Below are positions 1 to 30,252 of a stretch of 53,748 bases of DNA, piece after piece. The stretch's first letter is position 1. Every line of letters begins with the position of its first letter. The stretch comes from Siphonobacter aquaeclarae (GTDB lineage: Bacteria; Bacteroidota; Bacteroidia; Cytophagales; Spirosomataceae). Under the pieces are notes generated by a model. It was not told the DNA's origin and ran no database searches. It saw only the letters and a program-made list of their open reading frames with translations. The translations under genes and the position numbers were made by a program. Location: assembly GCF_900103285.1 (NCBI RefSeq), contig NZ_FNGS01000008.1, positions 1 to 53,748 on the forward strand, given 5' to 3'.

Positions 1-1113
1 TCCAACCGAAACCTGACCGTCAATGTCTCCGACGCGGCTCAGGGATATGTCAAAGTCAATACCATCGATGTACTGCCTGCTACTCCCGGTGTACCCGCCA
101 ATCCATACCCGTGGACCGGTATCTACTTTCAGGGCGTGCCGGTAACGGTGGTCGCCAAACCCAATCGCGGCTACAAATTTCAACACTGGAAAGACGGAGC
201 AACGATATTGACGACAGATACGACGCTGACGCTGGCATCGCTTACTGCCGACCGCACCCTGCTGGCCGTTTTCGTCGTCGACTCGGCCTTCAACAGCAAG
301 CCGCCGGCCTATAACCTGGTCCTGTGCGACTACCGTTTCCAGAGCTGGGATGCTGCCGCGCCGGCCGGTACCTATCCGCCCAATATGCAGTTTGTCTCGA
401 TGAATCAGGACGATCCGGGCCTTACTGCGGTTCCTGCCGATACGGTTAAAGGCGCCTACAACTACTCCTCCCGCACCCGCATCAACGGCCTGGGTAGTAA
501 CGGAATCGCCTTTATCAATACCGGCAACGACAATACCAATCCGGGGTATGTACCGAGCCGCCTGGGAGGTGCGCTGCTGGCCCTGCGGACGCTCGGGCTC
601 AACCAGGCCTTTGTGCAGTGGACCGGCGGGACAGTCACGCCCAACAGCCGGCAGTACCGCATCCGCCTGCGCTACCGGATCGGAGATACCGGCCCGTTTC
701 AGGACCTGACCGACGGCGGCGGTAATCCCGTCGAATACGTCCGGAATACTACTGCCGGCCATAGCCAGACCTTCGGCCCGGTGGCGCTGCCGGCGGCGTT
801 GCTCAACCAGCCTTACGTACAATTACTGTGGCAGTATTATTACACGGGCATAGGCACGTCGGGGTCGAGGGATCAGCTTCGGATCGACGATATTGTTGTT
901 TCCAGGGATAAATGCGAGAGCGTGGCATCGGGAAGCTGGCAGGTCAAAACGACCTGGAGCTGCGGGCGGGTACCGTCGGTTTGCGACGACGTCGTGATCA
1001 AAAACGGACACGTTATCACCATTGCGAATGCCGAAGCCCGAAACCTGCAACTGGAGGCCAATGCGCAGCTCAACTACTCCGGAGCCGGTACGCTCGTTTT
1101 AAAAGGTCCCTGA
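1..1113 (+). CDS. Secreted surface protein, C-terminal part (5' truncated; CotH-associated type tail)
   Basis: The frame is open from base 1 to a TGA at 1111-1113, so the gene starts upstream of the window; the GTG at 136 is only an internal codon. The first 60 residues (V-N-T-I, P-W-T-G-I-Y-F-Q-G, then G-Y-K-F-Q-H-W) resemble the small beta-rich repeats found after CotH kinase-like domains in Bacteroidota surface proteins. The middle part is Gly/Asn/Thr-rich and probably a beta-sandwich. The last 65 residues (W-Q-V-K-T-T-W, G-R-V-P, D-D-V-V-I, G-H-V-I-T-I) look like the G8/parallel-beta stretch that often ends secreted proteins of this phylum. Secretion is inferred; no type IX sorting domain is visible. 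The enzymatic part, if any, lies outside the window. Confidence 0.7.
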   Translation, partial: SNRNLTVNVSDAAQGYVKVNTIDVLPATPGVPANPYPWTGIYFQGVPVTVVAKPNRGYKFQHWKDGATILTTDTTLTLASLTADRTLLAVFVVDSAFNSKPPAYNLVLCDYRFQSWDAAAPAGTYPPNMQFVSMNQDDPGLTAVPADTVKGAYNYSSRTRINGLGSNGIAFINTGNDNTNPGYVPSRLGGALLALRTLGLNQAFVQWTGGTVTPNSRQYRIRLRYRIGDTGPFQDLTDGGGNPVEYVRNTTAGHSQTFGPVALPAALLNQPYVQLLWQYYYTGIGTSGSRDQLRIDDIVVSRDKCESVASGSWQVKTTWSCGRVPSVCDDVVIKNGHVITIANAEARNLQLEANAQLNYSGAGTLVLKGP

Positions 1114-1137
1114 CACCGCTTAATCCGGAAATTCGCT

Positions 1138-1145
1138 TATTTTTG
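1138..1145 (+). promoter_or_regulatory. Predicted promoter (-7 box) of the his operon
   Basis: TATTTTTG fits the Bacteroidota -7 consensus TAnnTTTG exactly. No clear TTTG is seen 19-21 nt upstream. The box ends only 4 nt before the ATG of the His-rich leader ORF, so the start site should fall at or within a base or two of that ATG. It lies just after the stop codon of the preceding surface protein gene. Confidence 0.6.
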
Positions 1146-1149
1146 CAAC

Positions 1150-1230
1150 ATGTTTACCCGCTCATTTCATCATCATGTGCATGAAGTTTCTGCCTTTCAG
1201 GCCGAAGGAGCGACGGTATTTCCCATCTGA
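1150..1230 (+). CDS. hisL: his operon leader peptide (attenuator peptide), 26 aa
   Basis: This small ORF begins ATG at 1150 and ends TGA at 1228-1230, giving 26 residues. Codons 7, 8, 9 and 11 are all CAT (His), so four of five consecutive codons read His (H-H-H-V-H). It ends 22 nt before an intrinsic terminator and 66 nt before hisH. His-rich leader peptides in this position are the classic sensor of charged tRNA-His in enterobacterial his attenuation. That function is inferred here from arrangement alone. The symbol hisL is used by analogy. No Shine-Dalgarno is seen, and the -7 box 4 nt upstream suggests translation from a leaderless or nearly leaderless mRNA. Confidence 0.8.
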   Translation: MFTRSFHHHVHEVSAFQAEGATVFPI

Positions 1231-1252
1231 AACAACCGAATAGCATATCCAA

Positions 1253-1286
1253 ACGCCTGATTCCCAACGAATCGGGCGTTTTTTTT
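1253..1286 (+). terminator. Intrinsic terminator of the his attenuator
   Basis: An 11-bp stem (1253-1263 with 1269-1279, one G-T wobble, loop CCAAC) is followed directly by eight T residues, 10 nt before the hisH ATG. The left arm GCCTGA (1255-1260) can instead pair with TCAGGC at 1197-1202, just downstream of the His codons, which would prevent the terminator. TCAGGC can also close a small hairpin with GCCT at 1192-1195. These are the competing pairings expected of an attenuator. Confidence 0.8.
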
Positions 1287-1296
1287 AACCTGTTGT

Positions 1297-1884
1297 ATGA
1301 AAACGGTTATCATCAAGTACAATGCCGGCAATGTCCAGAGCGTGATGTACGCCCTGGAACGCATCGGCGCCGGGTATCTCTGGACGGATGACGAACAGGA
1401 AATCCGTACCGCCGACCGGGTGATCTTCCCCGGCGTCGGCGAGGCGTCTACCGCGATGGCGTACCTCCGGGACAAGGGTCTCGACCGGATCATTCCCACG
1501 CTGAAACAACCCGTGCTGGGTACGTGTGTGGGAATGCAGTTGCTGTGCCGCTCGTCCGAAGAAAATAACACCACCGCCATGGGTATATTCCCGGTGGACG
1601 TGAAGCGCTTTCCGGCCGGCGATCAGAAGGTACCGCACGTCGGCTGGAACAACCTGACAAACCTGCGTTCGGAGCTGACGGCCGGGATGTCGGACAATCC
1701 CTACGTGTATTTCGTTCACAGCTATGCTGCGCCGGTGTGTGCGTATACCGTGGCCACCTGCGAATACATGGTTCCCTTTTCTGCCATGCTGCAGAAGGAC
1801 AATTTCTATGCTGCCCAGTTTCACGCAGAAATCAGCGGAAAAGAAGGACAGCAGATTCTCGAGAATTTTCTAAAACTGAGCTAG
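1297..1884 (+). CDS. hisH: Imidazole glycerol phosphate synthase, glutamine amidotransferase subunit HisH
   Basis: HisH hydrolyses glutamine and channels ammonia to HisF in the fifth step of histidine synthesis. The 195-residue length is normal. The nucleophile elbow G-T-C-V-G-M places the catalytic Cys at 77, and the C-terminal F-H-A-E gives His176 and Glu178, completing the triad. The oxyanion-strand P-G-V-G is at 45-48. The usual F-H-P-E-K-S motif reads F-H-A-E-I-S here, which is unusual. It is the first enzyme gene after the leader/terminator and is followed 1 nt later by hisA, so it is translationally close-coupled in the his operon. Confidence 0.96.
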   Translation: MKTVIIKYNAGNVQSVMYALERIGAGYLWTDDEQEIRTADRVIFPGVGEASTAMAYLRDKGLDRIIPTLKQPVLGTCVGMQLLCRSSEENNTTAMGIFPVDVKRFPAGDQKVPHVGWNNLTNLRSELTAGMSDNPYVYFVHSYAAPVCAYTVATCEYMVPFSAMLQKDNFYAAQFHAEISGKEGQQILENFLKLS

Positions 1885-1885
1885 T

Positions 1886-2605
1886 ATGTTCATCATTCCG
1901 GCCATTGACCTCATCGAAGGAAAGGCAGTCAGGCTGACACAGGGAGACTATTCGCAGAAAAAGGTATACAATGCCAACCCGCTCGAGGTAGCGAAGGAAT
2001 TTGAAGGCGCGGGTCTGACCCGGCTGCACCTCGTTGACCTCGACGGCGCAAAGGCAAAGAAAGTCATCAACTGGACGGTACTGGAAAAAATCGCTTCTCA
2101 AACATCGCTTCACATTGATTTTGGTGGTGGTGTACAGTCGGATGACGACCTGCGCGTCGTCTTCGAAAGCGGTGCCCGGCAGGTGACCGGCGGCAGTATC
2201 GCCGTCAAAAATCCGGCCCTTTTCGAAAGCTGGCTGAAGCAGTACGGAGGAGAGAAAATGATCCTCGGCGCCGATGCCAAAAACGAAAAAATCGCCGTCG
2301 GCGGCTGGGAAGAAGGTACCGAACTGTGGGTGTATGATTTTGTGCGGGAATGGCAGGAAAAAGGCGCACGGTACGTGATTTCGACGGACGTCGCCAAAGA
2401 CGGCCTGTTGCAGGGGCCGAGCTTTGATCTCTATGAAAAACTGAAAGCGCCGGGCCTGGATATCATCGCCTCCGGTGGCGTCAGTTCGATGGAAGACCTG
2501 GAAAAACTGGCCGAAATGAACGTATTCGGCGTCATCGTCGGAAAAGCCATCTACGAAGGCCGCGTGACCCTTTCCCAACTGCAAGAGCTCAACGCCGCAT
2601 GCTGA
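1886..2605 (+). CDS. hisA: ProFAR isomerase HisA (phosphoribosylformimino-5-aminoimidazole carboxamide ribotide isomerase)
   Basis: HisA performs the Amadori rearrangement of ProFAR to PRFAR, the substrate of HisF/HisH. At 239 residues it is a full (beta-alpha)8 barrel. The opening I-P-A-I-D-L gives the general acid/base Asp8. The second catalytic Asp is D130 (I-L-G-A-D). Phosphate-binding glycine loops are seen at F-G-G-G-V (79-83) and S-G-G-V in the last quarter, and S-T-D-V-A-K-D-G matches the family's strand-6 region. It overlaps hisF by 7 nt, so the two are probably coupled in translation. No anomaly was seen. Confidence 0.97.
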
Positions 2606-3366
2606 CCAAACGCATCATTCCCTGCCTGGACATCAAGGATGGCCGCACGGTGAAAGGCACGAATTTCGTCAACCTCCGCGACGCCGGAGACCCCGTCGCC
2701 CTCGGCGCACTGTATGCCGAGCAGGGCGCGGATGAGCTGGTGTTTCTGGATATTACGGCGACGGTCGACAACCGCAAGACCCTCGTTGACCTCGTCCGGA
2801 ACGTCGCCCGGCATGTGAATATCCCCTTTACCGTCGGCGGAGGCATCAGTTCTGTGGCCGACGTATCGGCCCTGCTCAATGCCGGCGCCGACAAGATTTC
2901 CATCAACTCTTCGGCGGTGCGCCGGCCGGAGCTGATCAACGAACTGGCCCTGCAATTCGGCTCCCAGTGTATTGTCGTGGCCATCGATACCCGGGAAGTA
3001 CCCGGAGAATCGGGTATCGAGCACGTAGTCCATACACATGGCGGCCGCAAGCCTACGGACCTGCGTACAATCCCCTGGGCAAAAGAAGCACAGGAGCGCG
3101 GCGCCGGCGAGATACTGCTGACATCGATGGATGCGGACGGTACCAAAGCCGGGTTTGCCCTGGCGCTCACGGCCGAAGTATCGGGCTCTTTGAGTATTCC
3201 CGTCATCGCCTCGGGCGGCGCCGGTACCATGGAGCACTTCACGGAGGTATTCACGACCGGCAAGGCCGACGCAGGCCTGGCCGCCAGTATCTTCCACTTC
3301 CGCGAAATCGGTATTCCTGAACTGAAAAGTTATTTGAAGGGGGAGGGGATTTCGGTGAGACCTTAA
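2599..3366 (+). CDS. hisF: Imidazole glycerol phosphate synthase, cyclase subunit HisF
   Basis: HisF uses ammonia from HisH to convert PRFAR into imidazole glycerol phosphate and AICAR, linking histidine and purine synthesis. The 255-residue barrel carries the two catalytic aspartates D11 (P-C-L-D-I) and D130 (V-A-I-D). The phosphate-binding motifs G-G-G-I and S-G-G-A-G are also present. The N-terminus M-L-T-K-R-I-I-P is typical. The ATG lies inside the end of hisA. After its stop there is a 134-nt gap with a large inverted repeat before hisI, the only loose join in the cluster. Confidence 0.97.
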
Positions 3367-3370
3367 GCAG

Positions 3371-3466
3371 TAGGCTCTAGGCGTTAAGCTATAGGCAGTA
3401 TGCCGCTGGCAATAGCCGGTTTCGGTCTCCTCAGCTTACGGCCTATAGCTTAACGCTTATAGCCTA
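3371..3466. repeat. REP-like imperfect inverted repeat between hisF and hisI
   Basis: Two 26-nt arms (3371-3396 and 3441-3466) are reverse complements except at three positions, with a 44-nt spacer. Each arm carries the core GGCGTTAAGCTATAGGC or a close variant. There is no T-run after the right arm, so it is not a typical terminator. It looks like an extragenic palindrome. A shorter, degenerate relative of the left arm (TAGGCTTTAGG) is seen just after the flavin reductase gene near 21405. Confidence 0.7.
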
Positions 3467-3500
3467 ATGCCCCTCCCCCTTCCAAACCCCTCATCACACC

Positions 3501-3815
3501 ATGACACTAAACTTCGAAAAAGCCGGCGGGCTTATCCCCGCGATCATACAGGACGCAGATACCCGGATGGTACTCATGCTGGGTTTCATGAACGAAGAGG
3601 CATACCTCAAAACCGAGGCCGAGCGTGTCGTCACGTTTTTCAGCCGGACTAAAAACCGGCTCTGGACCAAGGGAGAAACGTCCGGGAATTTCCTGCACGT
3701 AAAGGAAATCCGGGTAGACTGCGACCAGGATACCCTCCTCATCAAAGCCGTACCGGCCGGGCCGGTATGCCATACCGGAGCCGATACGTGCTTTTTTGAA
3801 GAGAATCCGAGATAA
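3501..3815 (+). CDS. hisI: Phosphoribosyl-AMP cyclohydrolase HisI (monofunctional)
   Basis: HisI opens the purine ring of PR-AMP in step three of histidine synthesis. The 104-residue protein has the family core F-S-R-T-K-N-R-L-W-T-K-G (47-58), the Mg-binding D-C-D-Q-D and the zinc cysteines in D-C-D, V-C-H and T-C-F. Many Bacteroidota carry a fused HisIE, but this protein stops right after the cyclohydrolase domain. The pyrophosphohydrolase hisE is a separate gene 8 kb downstream at 11846. Its stop is only 2 nt from the stop of the convergent membrane-fusion protein gene, with no terminator between. Confidence 0.95.
   Translation: MTLNFEKAGGLIPAIIQDADTRMVLMLGFMNEEAYLKTEAERVVTFFSRTKNRLWTKGETSGNFLHVKEIRVDCDQDTLLIKAVPAGPVCHTGADTCFFEENPR

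Positions 3816-30179: not shown

Positions 30180-30252
<73 letters not shown>

Follow-up and report, generated by a model that had tools for sequence, protein, structure and literature searches.

A probable leaderless attenuator upstream of hisH-hisA-hisF in Siphonobacter aquaeclarae and its relatives

The hisH gene of Siphonobacter aquaeclarae is preceded by a short gap in which a promoter element, a small open reading frame (ORF) rich in His codons and an intrinsic terminator follow one another. The question raised by this locus is whether, and by which mechanism, such an arrangement could adjust transcription of the his genes behind it to the supply of histidine. It was addressed here for a window of 53,748 nucleotides (contig NZ_FNGS01000008.1), the term window denoting this whole stretch of analyzed DNA, and for the corresponding loci of related genomes. 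With considerable confidence, we interpret the element as a ribosome-mediated transcription attenuator of hisH-hisA-hisF, and probably hisI, with a leaderless sensor ORF, a function proposed from sequence. What we observed are the anatomy of the element, its conservation, a fixed spacing between promoter and AUG, and the co-evolution of three alternative pairings.

Organization of the hisH upstream region and the genes behind it

The leader consists of the following features:

1138-1145, + strand: -7 promoter element TATTTTTG, matching the Bacteroidota consensus TAnnTTTG, 4 nt before the leader ATG
1150-1230, + strand: leader peptide ORF of 26 codons, MFTRSFHHHVHEVSAFQAEGATVFPI followed by a stop codon; probably leaderless, with the AUG at the transcript 5' end or no more than 1 nt from it
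1168-1182, + strand: control codons CAT CAT CAT GTG CAT (codons 7-11), a His cluster kept in relatives
1155-1168, + strand: region 1, predicted to pair with 1204-1218 (protector 1:2)
1197-1222, + strand: region 2, comprising UCAGGC (1197-1202) and the strands GGAGC, CGGU and UUUC; its predicted partner is region 3 (antiterminator) or, in part, region 1
1229-1260, + strand: region 3, with the partner strands of region 2; its 3' end, GCCUGA (1255-1260), lies within the left arm of the terminator
1251-1286, + strand: intrinsic terminator, a 13-bp stem (1251-1263 with 1269-1281), loop CCAAC (1264-1268) and eight T (1279-1286)

A preliminary description of this DNA had reported a 183-nt gap before hisH, a -7 box and a 26-codon ORF with CAT at codons 7, 8, 9 and 11, all of which were borne out base by base, with the stop of the preceding ORF at 1113 and the start of hisH at 1297. 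The same description assigned the terminator an 11-bp stem, which we correct to 13 pairs including A-T pairs, whereas its run of eight T, ending at 1286 and thus 10 nt before hisH, stands. TCAGGC (1197-1202), placed there about 15 nt past the last His codon, was measured to lie 14 nt after it and can indeed pair with 1255-1260 of the terminator left arm. The leader as a whole (1150-1290) folded with a z of -3.95, and the part reaching from UCAGGC to the terminator arm (1196-1264) with a z of -2.82, values as low being found in 0 of 200 shuffles in each case. The short leader ORF carries clustered codons for the amino acid of the downstream pathway, and an intrinsic terminator separates it from the first structural gene. 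Antiterminator and terminator are mutually exclusive, and the leader further has a protector pairing and a geometry that would let a stalled ribosome free the antiterminator, the order of the regions being partly given by construction.

The genes behind the terminator were assigned as follows:

1297-1884, + strand: hisH, the first structural gene (NCBIfam TIGR01855, 190.5 bits, cut-off 105.4)
1886-2605, + strand: hisA (NCBIfam TIGR00007, 245.1 bits, cut-off 228.95)
2599-3366, + strand: hisF (NCBIfam TIGR00735, 366.5 bits, cut-off 294.55)
3501-3815, + strand: hisI, phosphoribosyl-AMP cyclohydrolase (NCBIfam NF000768, 132.2 bits, cut-off 126)

The hisG gene of the same genome lies on a separate contig and is without a His leader. 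The predicted attenuator would therefore control hisH-hisA-hisF and not hisG, and hisI is probably the last gene under its control. For this reason, the earlier designation as a complete his-operon attenuator is too broad with regard to the operon, the genes downstream being only hisH-hisA-hisF and probably hisI. The gap of 134 nt between hisF and hisI contains an inverted repeat (37 nt, 86% complementary, 30-nt spacer; window positions 3367-3470). The HisI protein, of 104 aa, matches only the HisI half of the HisIE model.

His leaders before hisH and hisG, and the start of the leader transcript

The comparison comprised 81 hisH loci, namely the window and the best 80 of 202 relatives found, all 80 being named; the closest named relatives showed 83-85% identity to the hisH of the window. 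When the -7 box was part of the ORF choice, the leader was present in 72 of the 81 loci, with a box-to-ATG spacing of 4 nt in 69, 3 nt in 2 and 5 nt in 1. A choice blind to the box, based on His density alone, yielded a His-rich leader in 71 of the 81 loci. TAnnTTTG was located exactly 4 nt 5' of the ATG in 66 of these 71 (3 nt in 2, 5 nt in 1), compared with 3 of 313 other ATGs of the same stretches. Two loci (L025 and L069) in which the box-blind choice took the wrong ATG have a spacing of 4 at the right one, and L062, which is among the 72 and not among the 71, has one His codon. The leader was found in Siphonobacter, Flectobacillus, Arcicella, Spirosoma, Larkinella, Fibrisoma, Rudanella, Dyadobacter and other genera, including 5 of 5 congeneric genomes drawn by the search, so that the conservation of His codons and stems in close relatives, on which the preliminary description had made its reading depend, was confirmed. 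A generic finder scored a terminator in 65 of the 72 leader-bearing loci.

The leader was absent from 9 of the 81 hisH loci. Five of these nine (L007, L019, L026, L034 and L045) belong to Arcicella and Cytophagales metagenome-assembled genomes (MAGs) and have a similar upstream gene, and L077 is the ninth locus without the leader. By eye, the two loci L036 and L065, which have no attenuator, show an apparent transposase-like gene with hairpin repeats directly 5' of hisH, and in L072 a similar hairpin seems to sit between terminator and hisH. In L056, from a Rudanella MAG, hardly anything separates the -7 box from the terminator downstream of it, and the leader ORF and regions 1 and 2 seem to have been deleted. 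A further set comprised 20 hisH loci at greater distance within the family, hand-picked for variety and not random; 3 of them had a His leader at spacing 4 or 5 and 17 had none, 1 of the latter (L249) having just 85 nt upstream. The leaderless form before hisH thus seems characteristic of a single clade inside the family.

Outside the family, 40 stretches (L208-L247), also hand-picked for variety and not random, were searched for ORFs with at least 3 His in 8 residues. In 21 of the 28 genomes in which the stretch holds hisG upstream of hisH, such an ORF precedes hisG, in 19 with a terminator; applied to the region before hisH, the same criterion picked out none of the 40 stretches, and at random anchors it picked out 47 of 1200, true leaders included. 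A box was recognisable in 13 of the 21 leaders, 7-48 nt upstream and in none at 3-5 nt, because of which these hisG leaders look leadered or nearly so. His attenuation as such looks widespread in Bacteroidota, to judge from these ORFs. Two of the outside stretches (L210 and L213) hold His-rich short ORFs roughly 1 kb upstream of hisH and not near hisG, which suggests further relocations of an attenuator. A separate survey of 43 hisG loci, 40 of them from the family, revealed a short ORF with at least 3 clustered His at spacing 4 and no clear terminator in L198, L281 and L296, two of which are alike by eye; in four further loci of this survey, short ORFs contain two or three His and have no box close by.

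With regard to the start of the leader transcript, reports on Flavobacterium provide the reference. The -7 box was placed at -12 to -5 relative to mapped starts in F. psychrophilum (PMC9723704), and 4 or 5 nt were given between box and predicted start for probable promoters of F. johnsoniae (PMC6847099). A box at -12 to -5, together with the spacing of 4 found here, would therefore make the A of the leader AUG the first transcribed base. The leader mRNA thus most likely begins at its AUG, which makes the sensor ORF leaderless, a strong inference from promoter spacing. Leaderless mRNAs were reported to amount to 5.5% in F. psychrophilum (PMC9723704), 5' UTRs under 10 nt to about 3.7% in B. thetaiotaomicron, and 5' UTRs of 10 nt or less to 13% in F. 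johnsoniae (from a stated 87%; PMC6847099). Because only a minor share of transcripts in the phylum has no 5' UTR or a very short one, the constancy of the spacing across about 70 species points to selection.

The same attenuator could nevertheless be leadered, its transcript arising from another upstream promoter or starting some nucleotides before the AUG, with ordinary initiation. This is how the His leaders outside the family appear to be arranged, their box being 7 to 48 nt upstream where recognised (13 of 21). We consider it improbable for the hisH leader, where the box precedes the ATG by exactly 4 nt in 66 of the 71 box-blind leaders, a spacing that equals the distance from box to start described for Flavobacterium (PMC9723704, PMC6847099).

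The genome of the window contains 84 TANNTTTGNNNNATG sites, compared with 60 for a control pattern. Among these 84 sites, all translated, a short ORF with a His cluster and a strong terminator occurred at the window site only. Many of the sites open long ORFs, which suggests that leaderless protein-coding genes are not rare in this genome. The pattern of a leaderless His leader occurred once in the genome of the window (control, 0) and was present in 36 of 61 genomes. For a leaderless Trp leader, raw pattern matches came from 60 of 61 genomes, with numbers clearly exceeding the control in some of them.

Alternative RNA pairings and proposed mechanism

The alternative pairings were assessed by a partner-swap test, in which alignment-free duplex energies of each locus' own partners were compared with those of partners from other loci, the 72 loci being reduced to 45 at 90% similarity; the terminator pattern used in it was written after the sequences had been seen. 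Mean duplex energies of own versus swapped partners over the 45 non-redundant loci were -19.46 versus -15.80 kcal/mol for helix 1:2, -19.17 versus -17.08 kcal/mol for helix 2:3 and -22.14 versus -18.82 kcal/mol for helix 3:4, formed by region 3 and the right terminator arm. For each of the three helices, the own mean was reached by 0 of 5000 permutations. When permutations were confined to clades, the values were 0 of 5000 for 1:2, p = 0.028 for 2:3 and p = 0.0006 for 3:4. By this measure, the predicted helices 1:2, 2:3 and 3:4 co-evolve. The antiterminator proposed in the preliminary description, a 6-bp helix with TCAGGC, is retained as a structure exclusive with the terminator; as a helix on its own it gives way to a multi-helix structure of 1197-1222 with 1229-1260. 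Besides this structure, the 1:2 protector, the leaderless start and the control of only part of the his pathway go beyond that description.

Helices 1:2 and 2:3 have region-2 bases in common in 72 of 72 loci. The geometry also agrees with attenuation, in that a ribosome stalled at the His cluster would mask region 1 more than region 2, while one that has reached the stop codon would cover more of region 2 than a stalled one, each in 72 of 72 loci. These results are partly by construction, the last His codon having served as the border between regions 1 and 2. In the window, the terminating ribosome would cover only about 42% of region 2, because the UCAGGC strand is 25 nt away from the stop codon.

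Simulations of the stalled and the released state by partition function were run for the 65 loci in which the generic finder scored a terminator. Antitermination was higher in the stalled than in the released state in 62 of the 65, partly as an effect of length. Pairing of the arm in the stalled state averaged 0.546, versus 0.466 for shuffles, and exceeded the locus' own shuffle mean in 46 of 65 loci; with 0.46 versus 0.43 for its shuffles, the window itself did not stand out in this simulation. In such models, thermodynamics alone does not single out the antiterminator. RNAalifold returned no structure on an alignment of the Spirosoma group, a failure which we ascribe to region 1 apparently shifting along the leader.

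A closer view of conservation was provided by Dyadobacter, for which 25 of 29 loci were aligned (alignment A1). In this alignment, the share of cells that pair is 96.2% for helix 1:2, leader hairpin and terminator together, versus at most 47.0% in slid versions, and 98.6% for helix 2:3, versus at most 65.2%. Changes on both sides occurred at 4 pairs, all within the leader hairpin. For the antiterminator, the 25 sequences held no two-sided (compensatory) change, and their signal was not above column shuffles. Compensatory changes are few because the sequence is nearly frozen in this genus, so that the evidence for 2:3 comes chiefly from the swap test across genera.

Taken together, these data are compatible with the following mechanism, in which the start site, the ribosome positions and the response to histidine are what we infer from sequence. 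The TATTTTTG promoter would place +1 of the transcript at the A of the leader AUG, and a ribosome would load directly at this 5' end, without an untranslated leader. When charged His-tRNA is available, the ribosome would pass CAT CAT CAT GTG CAT, reach the stop codon and mask part of region 2, whereupon region 3 would pair with the right terminator arm and cause RNA polymerase to halt before hisH. When His-tRNA is scarce, the ribosome would stall on the His codons and mask region 1, so that 2:3 could form, the terminator would be blocked and hisHAF(I) would be transcribed. In the absence of a ribosome, 1:2 would be expected to form, and so would the terminator.

All 29 of the named Dyadobacter loci share one invariant stretch of 40 nt in regions 2 and 3 (for example L008:2839-2878; A1 columns 75-115). 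It was not found in the other named loci, and it is single-copy, with zero mismatches, in 16 of 16 Dyadobacter genomes searched. The identity includes parts predicted to be unpaired and exceeds what pairing needs. The stretch might serve as a binding site or as a pause signal, or it might represent a second, very small ORF; ATG/GTG TTT TTG CAA GTA GTG TTG TAA overlaps it. In a wider and rather unlikely view, leaderless attenuators of this kind would form a class of their own throughout the clade, within a phylum devoid of Shine-Dalgarno sites. The 5'-terminal AUG would then itself be part of the sensor, which would read both His-tRNA and the availability of ribosomes that can initiate at an AUG with nothing 5' of it, region 1 would be the very 5' end of the RNA, and the Dyadobacter stretch might also bind a trans-acting factor.

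Leader peptides can affect the translation of the next gene, and the His codons might accordingly act on translation of hisH, by coupling or by masking of its site, and not on termination of transcription. The three hisG loci with a short His ORF at the leaderless spacing and no clear terminator would fit such a role. Before hisH, however, terminator and T run are conserved, as scored in those 65 of 72 leader loci, which makes an action on translation very unlikely. That the hairpin should simply terminate the gene ending at 1113, and that the His ORF should be a product of chance, is hardly credible: the hairpin does lie between two same-strand genes and ends 10 nt before hisH, but His leader, promoter spacing and alternative pairings are kept before hisH in distant genera, while the upstream neighbour varies among the loci inspected. 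Direct sensing of tRNA or histidine by a T-box or a metabolite riboswitch, the former having been proposed for the his genes of Corynebacterium glutamicum (PMC3896937), is extremely improbable, as no Rfam T-box model reached the gathering score, either in the window or among 20 related loci, and a riboswitch needs no conserved coding ORF with His codons.

Relation to known systems

At the gathering score, the sole Rfam match in the whole window was a tRNA gene at 30180-30252, the leader being unmatched. No match was obtained at that score in the 20 related loci, and 18 of the outside-family loci with a His-rich ORF before hisG gave no Rfam match either. The Rfam His_leader model was absent among hits with E up to 10 for window positions 1080-1320. 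The leader would thus constitute an RNA family that is apparently not in Rfam 15. In the literature searched, neither a his attenuator nor a leaderless leader peptide was encountered for Bacteroidota, although a broader comparative study of attenuation by Lopatovskaya et al. (2010), cited in PMC4833913, may cover the phylum.

Within the phylum, strong clues for leader peptide attenuation before amino-acid operons were reported for F. psychrophilum (PMC9723704); the passage concerned names no operon or leaderless leader, and 'histidine' is absent from the main text of that report. The hisG leaders of other Bacteroidota described above share the His-rich ORF and differ in their position before hisG and in the distance of the box.

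Leaderless regulatory ORFs have been described in other phyla. The polycysteine short ORFs of mycobacteria are leaderless, rich in the regulatory amino acid and able to set downstream expression (PMC4633059; leaderless polycysteine attenuators also in Canestrari et al. 2020, as cited in PMC9031893). The mycobacterial case differs in amino acid and phylum (cysteine, Actinobacteria). As proposed here for hisH, the trpL transcript of Sinorhizobium meliloti begins with the ATG of its leader ORF and can form either an antiterminator or a terminator (PMC7298713). It differs from the present leader in that Trp takes the place of His and in that the organism is one of the Alphaproteobacteria. Alphaproteobacteria use Shine-Dalgarno sites. 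Bacteroidota are reported to be without them (PMC6847099). The predicted hisH leader represents a compact natural system in which to study the coupling of RNA polymerase to ribosomes that start at a 5' AUG and are not guided by a Shine-Dalgarno site.

Among the related systems is also the his attenuator of E. coli and Salmonella (Rfam His_leader), which likewise combines a leader peptide with His codons and a choice between antiterminator and terminator before his genes, the enterobacterial peptide having 18 aa and seven consecutive His (PMC3896937). Unlike in E. coli and Salmonella, the sensor ORF described here is probably leaderless, and the genes predicted to be controlled are hisH-A-F(-I) and not an operon starting at hisG. 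Judged by its sequence features, the leaderless his attenuator would be classic attenuation in a leaderless variant, which carries the textbook his attenuator over to Bacteroidota on the strength of dense comparative evidence, with a sensor ORF that would dispense with a 5' UTR.
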